Part shown: positions 1 through 9,308 of the stretch, in pieces | Position numbering within the stretch: the stretch's first letter is position 1 | Layout: the number at the start of each line of letters is the position of its first letter | DNA from: Candidatus Hydrogenedens sp. | GTDB lineage: Bacteria > Hydrogenedentota > Hydrogenedentia > Hydrogenedentales > Hydrogenedentaceae | DNA: 10,000 nt | Direction: 5' to 3' | Assembly: GCA_020216745.1 (NCBI GenBank) | Contig: JAIWNQ010000188.1 | Coordinates: forward strand, 1 to 10,000 | Translations under genes and position numbers: made by a program | Notes under the pieces: generated by a model | What the model was told of the DNA's origin: nothing | What the model saw: the letters and a program-made list of their open reading frames with translations, nothing else | Database searches by the model: none

Positions 1-2424
1 TCTATGTGGAAATCTATATATCATTGTGAAGAATGTCCGGAGCCGGAGAATGAATTATTAAAAGAAATTGTCCGTTGGCATAGAAACGCTATGGCAATAC
101 CAAGGCTTTATGGAGATGATTTCGGGAATGTGTCCACTATGCCCGTAAACTCTGTTTTTGGGATGAACCGATTGAATCATAATACAGAAATATTTTATGA
201 ATCTCTACGAACAGCAAACCCAGAAATACGAAAGACCTTCTTACTGTGGTGTCAAAATTATACACAGTTGTCAATATGGTGGGGCGAGTTAGAAAAAACA
301 AATTTTGGAGGAACGCGTTATAACAATATTCGAGGCAGAGACCCCAAAATACATGAAGATGACAATAATTTTATGTGGCGTTCTAATGACTCTGTTACCT
401 TCTGCACAAAAGGCTTTGACAATTTACTTTTTGCGTATGAGGAGACTGGTGACCCATTTTATGCATGTGGTTTAAAGTGGCAGATTGAATATGCAAAAGA
501 GAATGTTCACGCCAATACAGGGGAATGCAGAAATGTAGGGGTTGTAAAAGATTTTATGGTTCTATACCATGCTTTGGGAAAACAAGAATATGTACAACAT
601 GCCTTACGACTGTTCCGTGAATTACGTGAAAAATTATGTGATAATCATTTATTTTCTCAAGGTGGTGAACCATTAAAAAAAGATGTGCCATTTATTCAAA
701 ATGACCAGACTGGATATAAAAATCCGTTCCCGAAACCTTATATTTTGGGCTATGCATTGCAGGGATTGCCAGATTTGTATAAGGAATTCCCAGATGAACC
801 TCGTTTATATGAAACCATAGAATCTATTGCAAAGTTTATTGCGGAAAGTGGCGACCCTGTAGGTGGTTGGCGTTATCCCCATCCACGTTCACCACTTACA
901 TTCATTGGACAAGGGATTGAACATGCCCAGCAATTGGTAGATGCTTGTTCCGTGTTAAAGGAAAAGTCCCCTTATTTTGACCTTTGTTTAGATAGAATTG
1001 AAACTGTTTTACAGGCACGGGTTGCAGGTTTAATACGGAACCAATGTGTCTTGAACAGTTTAGGACCATGGGAATATGCAACAGGTAAGGTAGAAGCAGG
1101 AAAAAATTTAGAAGAAATATACAAAACGTTTGAGGAACGCGATTATTCAAGAGATTATACAGAGGGAAATATCTCCTGCACAGATGTCTTGCCTCCCGAA
1201 GGAGTAGTTTTCTTTGCAAGTGTTCTGAATTATTACCTGAAACACAGGGACGCAGAGCGTGTTTTGAATATTTCACACCCTGAATTACGGACAATCTTGA
1301 TGCGAATGACATTACCGAAAACAGAAACAAATATAGAAACAGGCAAAAATTGTTCTATCGAAAAAACACTTCCTAAATTTACGGCAGATTGGCTAAAAAA
1401 TTATGTGCCTTCTTTTCGTTATGAACAGGGGAAATTTACTAATTTCGAAGATTGGAAAAAGGAAGGTCGTAAGAAGGTTTTTGAATGTCTCGGTTCTCCA
1501 CCACCGTTTACCTTGTTCAGACCCGAATTAATTATAGAGGAAGATCGAAAATCTTATGTTGCACGGAAACTGATTTTGAACATATCTGAATGGGAACGTA
1601 TACCAGCCTATTTGCTAATCCCGAAAGGGACACCTCCTTTCCCTGCGGTCGTGTGCTTGCATGACCACGGTGCACATTTTAGTATCGGTAAAGAAAAGGT
1701 CGTCCAGCCTATAGCGGAACGTGATGAGGTAGTTGATGATGCAACAGATTGGGTAAATAAATATTATGGTGGTAGATTTATCGGTGATGAACTTGCAAAG
1801 CAAGGCTATATTGTTCTCGCAATTGATGCCCTATTTTGGGGTGCACGTCAGGAATGTGAAGGTAGTCAGTATGAACATCAACAACAATTAGGGTCAAACA
1901 TATTTCATTTAGGAACATCATGGTTGGGGATTATAACATGGGATGATATTCGTTCTGTGGAGTTTTTGAAAAGTCTACCAGAGGTTGATGGTGAACATAT
2001 AGGTGCAATAGGACTTTCCATGGGAGCACATCGCACATGGATGCTAAGTGCATTATCGGATAACATTAAAGTAGGCTGTGCTATTTGCTGGATGGCTACC
2101 ACACCATCATTGATGGTACCTGACAATAATCAGACACGAGGGCAATCCGCATATTCAATGTTAGCACCAAATCTGTATTTGTATCTGGACATACCCGATG
2201 TTGCCAGTTTAGCATGTCCGAAACCAATGTTGTTCTTCAACGGCACAAAAGATATTTTATTTCCATTAGAAGGTGTAGAAGAAGCATATAAGATTATGGG
2301 GAATGTCTGGCAGGCTCAAGGAACACCAGAAAACTTGCATACAAAAATATGGAATGTCCCTCATGAATTTAACCACGAAATGCAAGAAGAAGCATTTCAA
2401 TGGCTAAATAAACATCTAAAATAA
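1..2424 (+). CDS. Two-domain carbohydrate-active protein: helical toroid-like region plus alpha/beta-hydrolase (5' end probably cut by window edge)
   Basis: The frame is open to the left edge. The first ATG is at 4, but only three bases precede it, so the true start is probably upstream. Numbering from that ATG gives 806 residues. Residues 1 to about 430 are rich in Trp, Tyr and His and look all-helical, like the (alpha/alpha)6 toroids of polysaccharide lyases and unsaturated-glucuronyl hydrolases; a relation to exo-rhamnogalacturonan lyases (YetA-like) is possible but weak. From about residue 520 an alpha/beta-hydrolase follows. It has an oxyanion-type HDHGAH motif at 553-558, a nucleophile elbow GLSMGAH with Ser672, an acid candidate Asp750 (GTKD) and base candidates His787 or His791. 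This domain resembles acetyl-xylan-esterase/dienelactone-hydrolase-like proteins. The inferred role is removal of an ester group and cleavage of a plant or algal polysaccharide. No signal peptide is visible, but the real N-terminus is missing. Hydrolase call is firm; N-terminal family is not. Confidence 0.75.
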   Translation, partial: SMWKSIYHCEECPEPENELLKEIVRWHRNAMAIPRLYGDDFGNVSTMPVNSVFGMNRLNHNTEIFYESLRTANPEIRKTFLLWCQNYTQLSIWWGELEKTNFGGTRYNNIRGRDPKIHEDDNNFMWRSNDSVTFCTKGFDNLLFAYEETGDPFYACGLKWQIEYAKENVHANTGECRNVGVVKDFMVLYHALGKQEYVQHALRLFRELREKLCDNHLFSQGGEPLKKDVPFIQNDQTGYKNPFPKPYILGYALQGLPDLYKEFPDEPRLYETIESIAKFIAESGDPVGGWRYPHPRSPLTFIGQGIEHAQQLVDACSVLKEKSPYFDLCLDRIETVLQARVAGLIRNQCVLNSLGPWEYATGKVEAGKNLEEIYKTFEERDYSRDYTEGNISCTDVLPPEGVVFFASVLNYYLKHRDAERVLNISHPELRTILMRMTLPKTETNIETGKNCSIEKTLPKFTADWLKNYVPSFRYEQGKFTNFEDWKKEGRKKVFECLGSPPPFTLFRPELIIEEDRKSYVARKLILNISEWERIPAYLLIPKGTPPFPAVVCLHDHGAHFSIGKEKVVQPIAERDEVVDDATDWVNKYYGGRFIGDELAKQGYIVLAIDALFWGARQECEGSQYEHQQQLGSNIFHLGTSWLGIITWDDIRSVEFLKSLPEVDGEHIGAIGLSMGAHRTWMLSALSDNIKVGCAICWMATTPSLMVPDNNQTRGQSAYSMLAPNLYLYLDIPDVASLACPKPMLFFNGTKDILFPLEGVEEAYKIMGNVWQAQGTPENLHTKIWNVPHEFNHEMQEEAFQWLNKHLK

Positions 2425-2523
2425 GATTAACATTTCCAATAAAAAGTACATATTATTTTTTAAAAAAATACATTTTAAATATTTTTTGAAAAATTTCTTT
2501 TATTTTTTTTATTAAGAATTTGT

Positions 2524-2557
2524 TTTTGTAACAAAAAAAATTTTGTAACAAAAAAAT
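2524..2557. repeat. Two tandem 17-bp direct repeats carrying TTTTGTAAC
   Basis: Copy 1 (2524-2540) and copy 2 (2541-2557) share TTTTGTAACAAAAAAA and differ only at the last base. The 9-bp core TTTTGTAAC recurs at 2638-2646 and 2672-2680, which are 34 bp apart, i.e. twice the 17-bp period. An inverted copy, GTTACAAAA, lies at 3324-3332 in the speD-dhs spacer. The background is very AT-rich, but the conserved GTAAC core makes four same-strand copies in about 160 bp unlikely to be only composition. They could be operator sites or remnants of a repeat. Confidence 0.6.
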
Positions 2558-2575
2558 AACTAAAACTGTATATTT

Positions 2576-2604
2576 ATGAAAGCCTCATAAATAGAGGCTT
2601 TCAT
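2576..2604 (+). terminator. Possible transcription terminator after the hydrolase gene
   Basis: An 11-bp perfect stem with a 7-nt loop: ATGAAAGCCTC pairs with GAGGCTTTCAT around ATAAATA. The T-run (TTTTT at 2616-2620) begins 11 nt after the stem rather than immediately, so it is not a textbook intrinsic terminator. It lies about 150 nt after the stop codon at 2424. It could also be a 3'-end processing or stability hairpin. Confidence 0.5.
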
Positions 2605-2673
2605 TAATATGACTGTTTTTAAAAAAAATTTTAAAATTTTTGTAACTTTTAACTTGATTTTTCGTATTAAATT

Positions 2674-2703
2674 TTGTAACATTCTACCAATTTAAAATAT
2701 ATA
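2674..2703 (+). promoter_or_regulatory. Candidate promoter for the speD operon
   Basis: A TTGTAA -35-like box at 2674-2679 is followed by an 18-bp spacer and TATATA at 2698-2703; TAAAAT at 2693-2698 is an alternative -10. Either would start transcription at about 2705-2710, at the left edge of the GC-rich structured leader. The -35-like box lies inside the fourth TTTTGTAAC motif, so a protein bound there could compete with polymerase. Weak because almost any AT-rich DNA offers such boxes. Confidence 0.35.
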
Positions 2704-2797
2704 GCCTGCATATCTCCGTGTGATATGGAGGCGGCACAAGCCGACCCCAAGCCCTAAGCTCCTTAGTGAGGCGACCAGCGTAAGGCGGCAACGCGGT
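2704..2797 (+). ncRNA. Structured 5' leader of speD, candidate riboswitch or cis-regulatory RNA
   Basis: This block is much GC-richer than its surroundings and sits directly before speD. Reading it as RNA gives four successive hairpins. (1) GCCT 2704-2707 pairs with AGGC 2729-2732 and, inside, ATATC 2710-2714 with GATAT 2722-2726. An alternative is CTCC 2714-2717 with GGAG 2727-2730. (2) CGGC 2732-2735 pairs with GCCG 2740-2743 around ACAA, sharing base 2732 with (1). (3) GCC-CTAAG 2751-2758 pairs with CTTAG 2762-2766 and GGC 2770-2772. (4) ACC 2774-2776 and GCGT 2778-2781 pair with ACGC-GGT 2791-2797, leaving A2777 bulged and AAGGCGGCA as loop. No terminator follows, so translational control is more likely. 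I do not recognise it as any riboswitch class I know. It could instead be a protein-binding leader. Confidence 0.55.
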
Positions 2798-2811
2798 ACC
2801 AACTAAAAACA

Positions 2812-2833
2812 ATAAACCTATAGGAGGGTTTAT
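2812..2833 (+). promoter_or_regulatory. Hairpin presenting or hiding the speD Shine-Dalgarno site
   Basis: ATAAACC at 2812-2818 pairs with GGTTTAT at 2827-2833. The 8-nt loop, TATAGGAG, carries most of the Shine-Dalgarno core (AGGAGG, 2822-2827). The 3' arm covers the first two bases of the ATG at 2832. The structure could gate ribosome entry and is the natural output for the leader upstream. The stem is mostly A-U, so it would be marginally stable. Confidence 0.5.
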
Positions 2834-2897
2834 GAATTGCACAAGGGCATGCATCTTATTATCGATTGTCGGAATGTGTCGCGCGACCTATGCTTAA
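2832..2897 (+). CDS. Possible 21-codon leader peptide overlapping the speD start, out of frame
   Basis: The only ATG just after the AGGAGG site (spacing 4 nt) opens a frame of 21 codons ending in TAA at 2895-2897. This frame differs from speD, whose start TTG (2837) or ATG (2849) lies inside it. The peptide would begin MNCTRAC and has three Cys and two Arg. It may be a real regulatory leader peptide. It may also be an accidental ATG, or the original speD start displaced by a one-base deletion near 2839. No conservation evidence is available. Confidence 0.3.
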   Translation: MNCTRACILLSIVGMCRATYA

Positions 2898-3244
2898 ATG
2901 ACAAGCTGGTGTTGAACGTGATGGCTCGTGCTGCGGAACGAGCCGGCGCGACTGTAATTTCGCAAGTTCGTTACAAATTTGGGAGTGATTCCCCCCCCGG
3001 ATTTGCCGCCTTGGTCATGTTAGATGAAAGCCATTGCTCTGCTCATACCTATGCAGATTTAGGGCTCATCGCTATGGACATCTTTACTTGTGGAAAGACA
3101 GACCCACGGATTGTGTTCCGTTATATCCAAGAAGAATTAGATCTCGGAGATGTTACAATCCGTGAGTTGCCTCGGTTTCCCATTGAAGAAGAGATACCGT
3201 CGTCAATTCACAAAATTGAGTCCTTTGCAATGGCAAACAAATAA
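2837..3244 (+). CDS. speD: SpeD-family pyruvoyl-dependent decarboxylase (AdoMet decarboxylase, or arginine/ornithine decarboxylase derived from it)
   Basis: The 135-residue protein has the short bacterial/archaeal SpeD form. The self-processing site is DESHCSAHTY: cleavage between Glu64 and Ser65 would make the pyruvoyl group. His70 and Cys85 (DIFTCG) keep the +5 and +20 spacing of the Thermotoga maritima enzyme's Ser63, His68 and Cys83. The usual HTWPE stretch after the processing site is HTYAD here. AdoMet decarboxylase makes the aminopropyl donor for spermidine. Some SpeD homologues are known to have become arginine or ornithine decarboxylases, which would fit the agmatinase neighbour and lack of speE. 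The start is uncertain. TTG at 2837 is 9 nt after AGGAGG; ATG at 2849 is 21 nt away; ATG at 2832 is out of frame. A run of eight C lies at 2991-2998. Family is firm, substrate open. Confidence 0.88.
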   Translation: MHKGMHLIIDCRNVSRDLCLNDKLVLNVMARAAERAGATVISQVRYKFGSDSPPGFAALVMLDESHCSAHTYADLGLIAMDIFTCGKTDPRIVFRYIQEELDLGDVTIRELPRFPIEEEIPSSIHKIESFAMANK

Positions 3245-3431
3245 TTTTTTCTGGATGCTTGGGACAGATAATTCCTGCCAAAATAAATAGGGTGTTTTTT
3301 TCTCTAAATAGAGCAGGAATAACGTTACAAAACAAGCAAAGGGAGAGTATTCTCTTAGGCTATACCTTCCTTTGTTATTCGATTTCTGTTTATAATACTC
3401 TAAATACAATGCAGATAATAGGAGAGTAGCC
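3245..3431 (+). promoter_or_regulatory. speD-dhs spacer with alternative hairpins and a -10-like box
   Basis: This 187-nt gap is long for genes of one operon. TTGG 3259-3262 and CAG 3265-3267 can pair with CTG-CCAA 3275-3281, followed after 12 nt by a T-run (3294-3301). This excludes a second fold, in which ATTCCTG 3271-3277 pairs with CAGGAAT 3314-3320, stacked on CTCT 3302-3305 with AGAG 3310-3313. A further weak stem is CAAAGG 3337-3342 with CCTTTG 3369-3374. TATAAT at 3391-3396 is a perfect -10 box, but no good -35 lies 16-18 bp upstream. An inverted GTTACAAAA is at 3324-3332. The spacer may hold an attenuator or an internal promoter. The following gene has AGGAGAG at 3420-3426, five bases before its ATG. 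Confidence 0.4.
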
Positions 3432-4511
3432 ATGCATCGTGAATTACATGATGGTCGCGAAGATGGCCTTATGCCTCTTGAAAGTCTGGATTTGTCTAAA
3501 ATACATCGGTTTAGTGACCTCATCAAAGCAATGAGAAAGACTGCTTTCACTGGAAGAACATTAGGAGAAGCATTCGAAGTATTATTGCAAATGTTTCGTG
3601 ATGAGGATTGCAGTGTTGTTCTTACTCTTTCAGGAGCTATGACCGTGGCAAAACAAGGTATGATTATTTGTGAAATGATTAACCGTGGTTTGGTTCAAGC
3701 GGTCATCGCAACAGGTGCACTTATTGCCCACGGTGTTACCGAAAGCATTGGACTTACTCACTACGCTGTAAATCCAGAGGTAGATGATAAGGAACTTTTT
3801 GAAAAAGGTTATAACCGCGTATACGACACATTAGAGATGGAAGCCAATTTAAATGATGTATGTGAAGTGGTAGCCCGAGTATTGGATTTAATCGAACCTG
3901 AAGACGGCTTCTGGTGTTCTTATCGTTTCTGCCATGCTATCGGAAAAGAATTAGAAGATTTAAATTATGGTCCTGGCATCTTACGAAGTGCTTATAATAA
4001 AAATGTTCCCGTTTACATACCCGCCTTTACTGATAGTGAAATGGGACTGGACTTTTCTACGTGGGCAATGAAAAAAGCCATTGAAAAAAGGCAACAAGAA
4101 AACAATGTTTGGGACCCAGAAGAATTATTTCAGGCTGTGCCTAATTTTAACCCATTTTTAGATTTACAACATTACGCCCGATTAATCGGTAGAGCAAAAC
4201 GATTAGGAATTATAACCATCGGCGGTGGTGTTCCCCGCAATTGGGCACAACAAGTAGGACCTTATTATGACATAACCGCAAACCGATTAAATGTAGAGAT
4301 AAAACGACCTCGATTCCAATACGGCGTCCGTATTTGTCCTGAGCCTGTTTATTGGGGAGGCTTATCAGGTTGCACCTATTCCGAAGGCGTGAGCTGGGGC
4401 AAATTTGTGCCACTCGAAGAAGGTGGTAGATACGCAGAAGTATTAGCAGATGCGACACTTGTTCTGCCTTTCTTAATGAAATGTGTTTTTGAAGAATTAG
4501 ACGCAAATTAA
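3432..4511 (+). CDS. Deoxyhypusine-synthase-family protein, likely homospermidine synthase
   Basis: At 359 residues this matches full-length deoxyhypusine synthase (DHS). The C-terminal EGVSWGK carries Glu318, Trp322 and Lys324, matching human Glu323, Trp327 and catalytic Lys329. The following ADATLVLPFL also matches. The glycine-rich TLSGAM (65-70), ATGALIAHG (93-101) and GGG (264-266) fit the NAD-binding Rossmann core. The GGG is followed by VPRNW, where the human enzyme has VVKHH. Bacteria lack eIF5A, so hypusine formation is unlikely. Bacterial DHS homologues are known to make homospermidine from putrescine, as shown in the cyanobacterium Anabaena. The position between speD and an agmatinase gene supports a polyamine role. 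The start is supported by AGGAGAG five bases upstream. The stop is 9 nt from the next ATG, suggesting coupled translation. The exact aminobutyl donor and acceptor are not visible. Confidence 0.85.
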   Translation: MHRELHDGREDGLMPLESLDLSKIHRFSDLIKAMRKTAFTGRTLGEAFEVLLQMFRDEDCSVVLTLSGAMTVAKQGMIICEMINRGLVQAVIATGALIAHGVTESIGLTHYAVNPEVDDKELFEKGYNRVYDTLEMEANLNDVCEVVARVLDLIEPEDGFWCSYRFCHAIGKELEDLNYGPGILRSAYNKNVPVYIPAFTDSEMGLDFSTWAMKKAIEKRQQENNVWDPEELFQAVPNFNPFLDLQHYARLIGRAKRLGIITIGGGVPRNWAQQVGPYYDITANRLNVEIKRPRFQYGVRICPEPVYWGGLSGCTYSEGVSWGKFVPLEEGGRYAEVLADATLVLPFLMKCVFEELDAN

Positions 4512-4520
4512 GAGGGCTGT

Positions 4521-5435
4521 ATGAATAGAAGTGGAAAAACATATTTGTCTGAAAAAGAAAATTTCATGGCGTTGTCTCAAAATTTTTCTCATTCGGACAC
4601 TGCAAATGTTATAGTGTTGCCTGTACCATTTGAAAAAACATCAACATTCGGAAAAGGCTCAAAAAAAGGACCAGAAGCAATCATCAACGCCTCACACGAA
4701 GTGGAGTTATACGATACTGTATTAGGGTACGAGCCATATAAAACATGCGGAGGAATTGCTACATTATGCCCTCTACGAACTACTTCCATCTCAGGTTCAA
4801 ATTTGGCAAAAACATTAGAAAAAGAGGTGAGCTACTGGCTAAATAAGAAAAAATACATTGTTACCCTTGGTGGTGAACATTCAAGCATTGTAGGTTCAGT
4901 TTACGCACATATAACTACATATAAACCCCTCACCATTATTCAGTTGGATGCCCATAGTGACTTGCGAGATGCATACCTAAACGACAAATGGAACCATGCT
5001 TGTGCTATGGCACGTATTTTAGACCGACATAATGAGAAATTAATTCAGGTGGGTATACGGAGTGAAGCACCAGAAGAGCCAGAAATCTTAAAACAAGAAA
5101 AGAACCGTGTCTTCACCTTCTACGCCCATAAACTAAAAGAACGAGAAAAGATATCTATAAAAGAAATCGTAGACCTCTCCGATGAACAGGTATACATCAC
5201 ATTAGATTGTGATGTTTTTGACCCAAGTATTATCCCATCTACTGGGACACCGGAACCCGGAGGTCTAACTTGGGAATGGATTAATCATTTTTTCTCTGTC
5301 TTATCAAAAGAGAGAAAAATTGTCGGATTTGATGTAAGTGAACTCAGTCCCATTCCCTTCCTGCACCATCCACAATTCACCATAGCAAAACTAATTTACA
5401 GACTTATTGGACTCATCTTTCCACCTAAAAAATAA
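4521..5435 (+). CDS. speB: Agmatinase-family ureohydrolase
   Basis: Agmatinase hydrolyses agmatine to putrescine and urea. The 304-residue length is normal for the family. The binuclear manganese ligands are all present: His120 in GGEHS; Asp143, His145 and Asp147 in DAHSD; Asp229 and Asp231 in DCDVFDP. The following STGTPEPGG is the usual substrate-loop signature. AGAGGG at 4511-4516 overlaps the dhs stop and sits 4 nt before ATG 4521. ATG at 4566 would remove 15 poorly conserved residues but has a weaker ribosome site. It is the last gene of the polyamine cluster. Relatives in the same fold act on arginine, guanidinobutyrate or N1-aminopropylagmatine. Agmatine is inferred from context; aminopropylagmatine is a real alternative if SpeD makes decarboxylated AdoMet and an aminopropyltransferase is encoded elsewhere. 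Confidence 0.88.
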   Translation: MNRSGKTYLSEKENFMALSQNFSHSDTANVIVLPVPFEKTSTFGKGSKKGPEAIINASHEVELYDTVLGYEPYKTCGGIATLCPLRTTSISGSNLAKTLEKEVSYWLNKKKYIVTLGGEHSSIVGSVYAHITTYKPLTIIQLDAHSDLRDAYLNDKWNHACAMARILDRHNEKLIQVGIRSEAPEEPEILKQEKNRVFTFYAHKLKEREKISIKEIVDLSDEQVYITLDCDVFDPSIIPSTGTPEPGGLTWEWINHFFSVLSKERKIVGFDVSELSPIPFLHHPQFTIAKLIYRLIGLIFPPKK

Positions 5436-8101: not shown

Positions 8102-9238
8102 TCACATTTCTGATTCGGAAACTTCTCGACACATAAAACGGATACGATTATACCGAAAATTATAATCAGGGTCTCCTCCAATCTGGCAGGAATAGAAAAG
8201 ATATATCATATCTTTTCCTTTCTCATTGATTACAATTGCTTCGGGCACATGCGTCGCAGGAGTATCTGGGTCAGGGTCAATATAACCTGTAATCTGCCAA
8301 TGGACACCATCTTTTGATATGGCTTCAGTAATTTTTCTTCCTTTCCAGCCATGATGTTCATATCCACCAGGGTCTGCATAGGCATAATAAATGTTTTTAA
8401 CCTTGACAACATCAGGGTTTGGAAATTCCCAAAGGCAAGGATTTTCGCCAATACGAATCAATTTCCAATCTTCAGACTTCATGAAATCTCCATGATTCTC
8501 AGCATAGCCCATTGCAGTTCCACGTGGTGTCCAGTAATCAAACCAAATTTTAAACTTGCCGTCTTCATACATAATTGAGGGACGATGGTAAGTACCCCAT
8601 AAAGTAACATCTCCTGCCTTATCTTTGGAACCTAACTCGCCAACATATTCCAAAATAGGCTTTTCCGAACGTTTCCAGTGTATCCCATCATCAGACACGG
8701 CACCCATAACACAATAGAAATCGCCATCCGTATCGTTAGGTGTATCCGCAGGAATTCTGTCTTTATCATGCCCAGTAGCACTATATGCCATGTAGTATTT
8801 ATTCCCTACTTTAATAACAGATGGGTCACCATTATGCCATTCATCAAAATAGGTTCCCGAAGTACTAAATAACGGCTTCCACAACTTCGGATTGCAGGTA
8901 ATATCCCATGTATTATCACCCGAATATACCTCCCATGGTCCTTCCAATTTCTTTGACCGTGCCATAAAAATAGCATCACAACCCTTAAAGTCAGGAATGT
9001 TTCTATTGCAGTCCTCAACTGCCCAACCAAAAAACCATGCTTTGAATGGATATTCTGCATCAGGTTCATGAAGTACATGAAAATTGTACATATTACCAAA
9101 GCCACTCAAAATATTTTTATAATTCTTTTGCCATAAGGCTGAACAATTCTTAATCTGGTTATTACTGGTAATCCGAAACTCCAAAATAAAACATAAGCAG
9201 AGTAATGAAATTGTAAAAACAATTCGTTTGCTAATCAT
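8102..9238 (-). CDS. Exported five-bladed beta-propeller protein, GH43/GH32-like glycosidase family
   Basis: With the start at ATG 9238 the protein is 378 residues and begins MISKR followed by a hydrophobic run to about residue 20, a signal peptide or membrane anchor. AAAGGA lies seven bases upstream of this ATG. The in-frame ATG at 9271 has no ribosome site and would push the signal sequence inward. The rest shows repeated propeller blades: NGDPSVIKVGNKYYMAYS (136-153), SDDGIHWKR (182-190), HRPSIMYEDGKFKIWF (218-233), FPNPDVVKVKNIYYAYADPG (272-291), SKDGVHW (308-314) and HVPEAIVI (330-337). Asp138 and Glu333 are possible catalytic acids, not assignable with certainty. Such folds occur in arabinanases, xylosidases, fructosidases and glycoside phosphorylases. 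It probably releases sugar outside the cytoplasm for the importer and isomerase encoded downstream. Confidence 0.8.
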   Translation of the reverse strand: MISKRIVFTISLLCLCFILEFRITSNNQIKNCSALWQKNYKNILSGFGNMYNFHVLHEPDAEYPFKAWFFGWAVEDCNRNIPDFKGCDAIFMARSKKLEGPWEVYSGDNTWDITCNPKLWKPLFSTSGTYFDEWHNGDPSVIKVGNKYYMAYSATGHDKDRIPADTPNDTDGDFYCVMGAVSDDGIHWKRSEKPILEYVGELGSKDKAGDVTLWGTYHRPSIMYEDGKFKIWFDYWTPRGTAMGYAENHGDFMKSEDWKLIRIGENPCLWEFPNPDVVKVKNIYYAYADPGGYEHHGWKGRKITEAISKDGVHWQITGYIDPDPDTPATHVPEAIVINEKGKDMIYLFYSCQIGGDPDYNFRYNRIRFMCREVSESEM

Positions 9239-9308
9239 TCTTATATCCTTTCTATTTCCTTGGTTTATCATTTAATAGGTTTATTTAAATAAGTTAAATT
9301 ATGTAAAT

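Follow-up and report, generated by a model that had tools for sequence, protein, structure and literature searches.

A conserved candidate regulatory RNA in the leader of a probable arginine decarboxylase operon of Hydrogenedentota

Introduction

Riboswitches such as SAM-II and preQ1-I act on translation. For polyamines, the evidence for riboswitches was, despite claims, considered unconvincing before variants of SAM-I were described (PMC10853860). In the spermidine riboswitch, a variant SAM-I aptamer with a four-stem junction, spermidine leads to premature transcription termination (PMC10853860). The leader of speF in Salmonella provides another type of control, in which a polyamine-synthesis decarboxylase depends on arginine at the mRNA level (PMC6386406). 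Some SpeD homologues are arginine decarboxylases (SpeDA), and for several of these an arrangement with speY and speB has been published; a proline distinguishes AdoMet decarboxylases (AdoMetDC) from the arginine enzymes (PMC10407285).

Here, we analyse a stretch of 10 000 nucleotides from Candidatus Hydrogenedens sp. (phylum Hydrogenedentota; contig JAIWNQ010000188.1, assembly GCA_020216745.1), hereafter the window, which contains a putatively structured leader upstream of a speD homologue. Like SAM-II and preQ1-I, this leader has a short conserved core near the Shine-Dalgarno sequence and could adopt an alternative pairing, but it matches no Rfam model. It resembles the spermidine riboswitch in being a leader RNA tied to polyamine-synthesis genes. 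It differs from it in its core and in the lack of SAM-family Rfam matches at E-values up to 10, in that no terminator is seen at positions 2400–3450 of the window, and in its gene, which probably encodes no AdoMet decarboxylase (PMC10853860). The likeness to the speF leader is that of a polyamine decarboxylase gene under (here putative) mRNA-level control, although speF encodes an ornithine decarboxylase (PMC6386406). The encoded protein, itself a putative SpeDA, shares with the SpeDA enzymes the speY and speB neighbours, the missing AdoMetDC-typical proline and the apparent lack of a stand-alone spermidine synthase, but the main text of the SpeDA study contains neither 'Hydrogenedent' nor 'riboswitch' (PMC10407285).

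A conserved core upstream of the speD homologue

We compared the DNA upstream of speD homologues among relatives of the window's genome. This revealed a core, GCCGNCCCCAAGC-(21–30 nt)-GCGUAAGGCGGC, at positions 2740–2789 of the window (table 1). Of the 29 genomes of the order that have a close homologue of the gene, 11 carry the motif, i.e. GCCGNCCCCAAGC, 21–30 variable bases and GCGTAAGGCGGC, between a promoter-like sequence and the ribosome-binding site; CCCCAAGC is exactly conserved in all 11. Seven aligned sequences from five families (f1, f2, f3, f5 and f11) have 24 invariant columns, 23 of which are within the two core strands; the distance between the halves is 21, 22, 23, 25, 27 or 30 nt. 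A preliminary description of this DNA had expected the GC-rich block to recur upstream of orthologous speD genes, which is true of these 11 genomes and not of the other 18, where the leaders are different.

Table 1. Features of the leader and of the operon, in window coordinates.
Feature	Position	Strand	Remarks
Sigma-70-type promoter-like sequence: TTGATT (2654–2659), 17 nt, TAACAT (2677–2682)	2654..2682	+	no differences among three species of the genus
P0, first hairpin of the leader, sequence variable between families	2704..2732	+	from predicted folds
Core 5' strand, GCCGNCCCCAAGC	2740..2752	+	all positions but N invariant across seven aligned sequences (five families)
Variable inner segment (P2), 21–30 nt in relatives	2753..2777	+	CUCC at 2759–2762 could pair with a Shine-Dalgarno sequence
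Core 3' strand, GCGUAAGGCGGC	2778..2789	+	would pair with 2740–2746, closing the core; the seven sequences differ at the last base alone, where one has U
Shine-Dalgarno hairpin, AAACC-TATAGGA-GGGTTT	2814..2831	+	from folds; congeners carry AACCC/GGGTT there; not general in other families
ATG (2832) out of frame with the gene, opening a 21-codon frame that overlaps its start	2832..2897	+	27 of 29 loci of the order retain the ATG at -5
SpeD homologue, TTG start; probable arginine decarboxylase of the pyruvoyl-dependent type (SpeDA)	2837..3244	+	PF02675; TIGR03330; HTYAD
Deoxyhypusine-synthase homologue, probably SpeY (homospermidine synthase)	3432..4511	+	PF01916
Agmatinase (SpeB)	4521..5435	+	PF00491; TIGR01230 above cut-off

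The core is tied to a single gene. We built a covariance model (R1) from seven of the 11 core sequences, leaving out L003 and L004 (both with the same core as the window), L019 and L022. The searches of the order and of the phylum both covered 68 genomes, and R1 matches 11 of them, once each, always directly upstream of a speD homologue and in the same five families. Beyond the phylum, R1 has no credible match in a set of 386 genomes (order included) at stricter filters; the sole further match, in G127 (E = 0.005), falls in a GC-rich inverted repeat and was judged to be due to chance. Nor was anything found in 195 genomes of the phylum of G095 (stricter filters, run without a positive control). 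Weak versions of the core were absent from 22 other loci with speD homologues, 18 from the order and four from outside, even with filters off (best E = 1.3). A loose version of the pattern occurs in 17 places in 15 genomes of the phylum, 11 of which are the speD leaders. The remaining six, one of them in G048 (contig C153), a genome without a match to the speD homologue, were taken as chance given that the reversed control pattern occurs seven times. The loose pattern is also found in at least 120 stretches of viral contigs. A stricter one finds five such contigs carrying one near-identical stretch with an unrelated inner part, again taken as chance. We also rejected a mobile repeat: the core is single-copy in its own genome, R1 matches once per genome elsewhere and there are no matches in phages or plasmids.

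The leader is under strong selection, as shown by comparison within the genus. The window's leader is identical to those of two congeners at 88 of 91 and 90 of 91 positions, whereas fourfold-degenerate sites of the gene differ at 20 of 53 and 23 of 51 in the same two, and the DNA upstream of the promoter aligns poorly among the three species of the genus. The same type of comparison establishes the conservation of the core across families, its placement between promoter-like sequence and ribosome-binding site, and its tie to one gene. On the gene tree, where many forks are unresolved, the label 'has the core' needs five changes, against a mean of 9.4 when shuffled, and it is possible that the core had one origin with later losses.

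A search with Rfam 15 (4227 families, gathering threshold) gave no match in the window, and in 17 loci of relatives the sole match at this threshold was a tRNA in L013. When E-values up to 10 were allowed for three leaders with the core, the only matches were far below gathering scores and none was to a SAM family. The preliminary description, which could match the leader to no known class, was right in this respect, since no Rfam family fits the leader. We found no description of such a leader in open-licence papers. Hence, the class appears to be new, while its kind, a structured mRNA leader, is already known.

The gene probably encodes an arginine decarboxylase

The preliminary description had taken the gene for an AdoMet decarboxylase gene. 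The 135-aa protein matches AdoMet_dc and lies just above the cut-off of TIGR03330 (85.6 versus 75.65 bits). It retains the processing serine and the catalytic His and Cys, as LDESHCSAHTYADLGLIAMDIFTCGK aligns with PDB entry 1tlu, which we take to be the AdoMetDC enzyme of T. maritima. The proline of the HTWPE motif of this solved AdoMetDC is absent from all 29 loci of the order, which have HTYAD, HSYAD or HAYSD; besides 1tlu itself, L031 and the speD next to speE in G044 have HTWPE. We infer that the missing residue is the proline marked in PMC10407285.

The genomic context is that of the SpeDA operons. A deoxyhypusine-synthase homologue lies downstream of the gene in 15 of 18 loci of the order (L206–L223), and 10 of the 11 motif-bearing genomes have speY, speB or both downstream, G050 being outside the comparison. 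The SpeY candidate of the window scores under the cut-off of each of the seven NCBIfam equivalogs listed. In the window's own genome (86% complete), we found no stand-alone spermidine synthase, PF01564 being matched only in frames of 895, 978 and 1187 aa; its single PF02784 gene is nearest to lysA, below the lysA cut-off. PF01564 has matches in 67 of the 68 genomes of the order, mostly in long frames among the matches listed. Frames of stand-alone size include a true speE in G044 and a 281-aa frame in G036, both genomes with the core. In G044, the speE (146.4 bits) adjoins a bona fide second speD and is followed by an agmatinase-like gene with 29% identity to that of the window (L205, positions 1715–2164, 838–1731 and 27–878 for speD, speE and the agmatinase-like gene, all on the minus strand). 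This second speD provides a natural control: R1 finds no core there.

The absence of the AdoMetDC-typical proline, the adjoining speY and speB and the failure to find a stand-alone spermidine synthase speak against the original gene assignment. The gene is probably a SpeDA arginine decarboxylase in a speDA-speY-speB operon and not a SAM decarboxylase. This changes the ligands worth testing: AdoMet and spermidine become less likely, while agmatine, arginine or a polyamine stay in play. We note that the NCBIfam equivalog would give this protein the name AdoMet decarboxylase despite its probable identity. Elsewhere in the window, a 389-aa protein (8102–9271, minus strand) has no Pfam family, and its NCBIfam match, to beta-1,2-mannobiose phosphorylase, is weak; a protein resembling fucose isomerase and an ABC permease for sugars are encoded in the same stretch.

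Promoter-like sequence and predicted hairpins

From the position of the promoter-like sequence (table 1), transcription would start at about 2690 and the leader would be about 147 nt long. A scripted search finds TTGA..-N16..18-T....T in nine of the 11 core-bearing leaders; the pattern fails in L019 and L022. A general promoter scan omits the TTGATT/TAACAT of the window, which has eight of 12 consensus bases where nine are demanded. A simple consensus scan that also required a T run gave no terminator-like site at 2400–3450, and control of the operon by a terminator was rejected on this ground. An inverted repeat, GAAAGCCTC...GAGGCTTTC, is located at 2578–2604, 3' of the gene of an 806-aa hydrolase, and is partly retained in congeners; it is perhaps a terminator, though the terminator scan lists none.

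The leader contains the abrupt GC-rich block that had first drawn attention to it: the GC content is 15.8% at 2425–2690, 61.9% at 2704–2800 and 27.8% at 2801–2836. Four successive hairpins had been drawn in this block by eye. The minimum-energy fold of 2700–2805 gives them at near-identical coordinates (2704–2732, 2733–2742, 2751–2772 and 2774–2797), but the fold of 2690–2860 keeps only the first two and adds a Shine-Dalgarno hairpin (approx. 2814–2831). The hairpins are not stronger than expected by chance: for 2700–2805, 65 of 200 shuffles of the same composition are as stable (z = -0.45), and for 2690–2860, 18 of 200 (z = -1.44). Folding of the single sequence is uninformative for this leader. 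Hairpin 2 (GGC/GCC) is disrupted in both congeners, where GGC is changed to GAC. Hairpins 2 and 4 use bases of the core, in which GCCG (2740–2743) would instead pair with CGGC (2786–2789). Two competing pairings had been noted in the first hairpin; both tolerate the changes in the sole congener that differs (C-G to U-G and U-A to U-G), so the data give no choice between them. P0 is more stable than shuffled sequences in four sequences of f1 and f3 (p = 0.002–0.05) and not in five others tested (p = 0.086–0.68). The further hairpin proposed around the Shine-Dalgarno sequence is indeed predicted, with AGGAGG (2822–2827) in its loop and stem. It was also correct that no open frame, or at least no conserved one, explains the block: a short frame starting ATGGAGGC is confined to the three leaders of the window's genus and missing from the eight others with the core, and a leader peptide was rejected accordingly.

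Folding of the core and pairing of the Shine-Dalgarno sequence

The core can close as GCCG/CGGC plus CC/GG around an internal loop CCAA/GUAA, with an inner GC/GC in nine of 11 constrained folds. These pairs are formed in 100% of the cells of the alignment and are invariant but for one G-C to G-U change. None of the eight is changed on both sides; since they hardly vary, covariation speaks neither for nor against them. None of the 11 leaders has the core in its minimum-energy fold, and forcing the core costs 2.3 to 11.5 kcal/mol relative to the free ensemble. Instead, in the minimum-energy folds of seven leaders, AAGC and the inner segment pair with five to seven of the seven bases of the Shine-Dalgarno region, which excludes the core. 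This pairing is absent from the folds of the other four (the three of the window's genus and L016).

The energies of these anti-Shine-Dalgarno duplexes, tested in seven sequences with two near relatives left out, gave combined p-values of 0.0025 and 0.036 with mononucleotide and dinucleotide shuffles, respectively, a weak signal resting largely on one lineage (L019, p = 0.008). When the core is forced, the predicted accessibility of the Shine-Dalgarno sequence increases by at least 0.07 in four of the 11 leaders, including the near-copies L019 and L022 for which the transcript start was guessed, and is about unchanged elsewhere. These models make the geometry of a switch plausible.

Proposed mechanism and rival explanations

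The preliminary description had presented the leader as a cis-regulatory element of a polyamine gene. The promoter-like sequence, the core shared by five families, the single associated gene and the lack of an Rfam match bear this out, and we consider it very probable that the 5' leader holds a conserved cis-acting regulatory RNA. Its known range is one phylum and one gene, and 18 of the 29 genomes with the gene are without the core. The stretch would be the leader of the operon speDA-speY-speB, whose probable product is homospermidine, made from arginine via agmatine and putrescine. We propose that the core is a short helix, GCCG-CC/GG-CGGC, enclosing the internal loop CCAA/GUAA and a variable inner hairpin, and that the invariant loop would be the site for a small metabolite of the pathway, i.e. 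arginine, agmatine, putrescine or homospermidine. Folding of the core would compete with pairing between the Shine-Dalgarno sequence and its partners, AAGC and the inner segment, and ligand binding would thereby alter translation initiation at the weak UUG start. In this geometry the ribosome-binding site would be released once the core is formed, which suggests that the ligand may switch expression on. For the window's own genus, the prediction instead puts the ribosome-binding site inside a local hairpin. That the leader is a translational riboswitch for a pathway metabolite is, taken as a whole, a statement for which we see the chances as nearly balanced. We advance more tentatively a fuller reading: a new riboswitch class, so far confined to Hydrogenedentota, would sense a metabolite of the arginine-to-homospermidine pathway (arginine, agmatine, putrescine or homospermidine) and control translation of the operon of a neofunctionalised SpeD. 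Within this one phylum, the same gene would then be served by at least two leader architectures unrelated to each other, this being one of them.

The main rival, which we consider unlikely, is that a protein binds the leader and either represses or activates translation, with no small-molecule ligand on the RNA; it could be specific to the operon or a general one, e.g. a ribosomal protein. A short asymmetric internal loop with invariant bases and a short closing helix would suit protein binding no less than an aptamer. The core, with its 23 invariant positions in two strands, is small, and the free RNA is not predicted to adopt the core fold; the single copy per genome, at a single target gene, counts somewhat against such a site. 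It is quite improbable that the element is constitutive or independent of metabolites, acting by stability hairpins at the 5' end, as a thermosensor or by folding alone. In favour of this reading, the predicted ensembles of all 11 leaders have the Shine-Dalgarno sequence at least partly paired, and P0 is strong in f1 and f3. Yet elements of this kind keep their pairing rather than their sequence, whereas the 23 core positions, unpaired ones included, are invariant in seven sequences from five families.

The gene start raises a different possibility. The start column at 2837 is TTG in all 29 loci of the order (GTG, ATG and GTG in three relatives from outside), and the out-of-frame ATG at -5 is kept in 27 of them amid varying neighbouring bases. 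This ATG (2832) may compete with the gene's own start and so lower or tune expression. The small overlapping frame could itself be the control, its AUG five bases before the UUG capturing ribosomes while the leader merely presents the Shine-Dalgarno sequence. We regard this as very improbable: the AUG accompanies leaders with and without the core, which is hence left unexplained, and the frame varies in length (21 codons in five loci of f1 and f3, 10 in one and nine in the other 21 with the ATG), its end being largely dictated by the Leu codons of the gene. The least probable alternative is that a transcription factor binds the conserved halves as an operator in the DNA. They do sit downstream of a sigma-70-type promoter-like sequence, but their spacing ranges from 21 to 30 bp with no helical phase, they are complementary to each other as a hairpin and they have the same orientation to the gene in 11 of 11 cases. 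Such variable spacing fits an RNA hairpin better than an operator of fixed spacing.

If the riboswitch reading holds and arginine, agmatine or homospermidine is bound, the ligand specificity would in our judgement be rare or new among natural switches. Next to the SAM-I variants, the element would be a second leader class at a polyamine operon, unrelated to the first, and its compact core of about 50 nt is a small, testable RNA.

Other leaders at the same gene

A second leader is found in seven of the 29 genomes, all from f10 (loci L007, L008, L012, L013, L014, L015 and L018). It reads GTG-TTTGTGCCGC-NTTT-GCGGGC-AC, with small departures between members, and lies approximately 40–80 bases upstream of the gene. 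In its helix, seven of 15 pairs are changed on both sides (as many in two of 500 shuffles) and the covariation score is reached in none of 500 shuffles, the structure having been drawn from the same seven sequences that were tested. The number of further pair types is unremarkable (59 of 500 shuffles as high). Rfam gives no credible match for this leader (one member, E-values up to 10). A model built from the seven sequences (R2) finds the same seven genomes again, each at the gene, plus two weak matches elsewhere. These comparisons suggest that structured leaders recur at this gene, that of f10 being independent of the core. Two unrelated leaders at one orthologous gene in one phylum would allow the replacement of one regulatory RNA by another to be studied. 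The remaining 11 of the 29 genomes have leaders of other types. Further GC-rich leaders, with no single structure common to them, are carried by f10 at L009, L010, L011, L017, L020, L021, L025 and L026.
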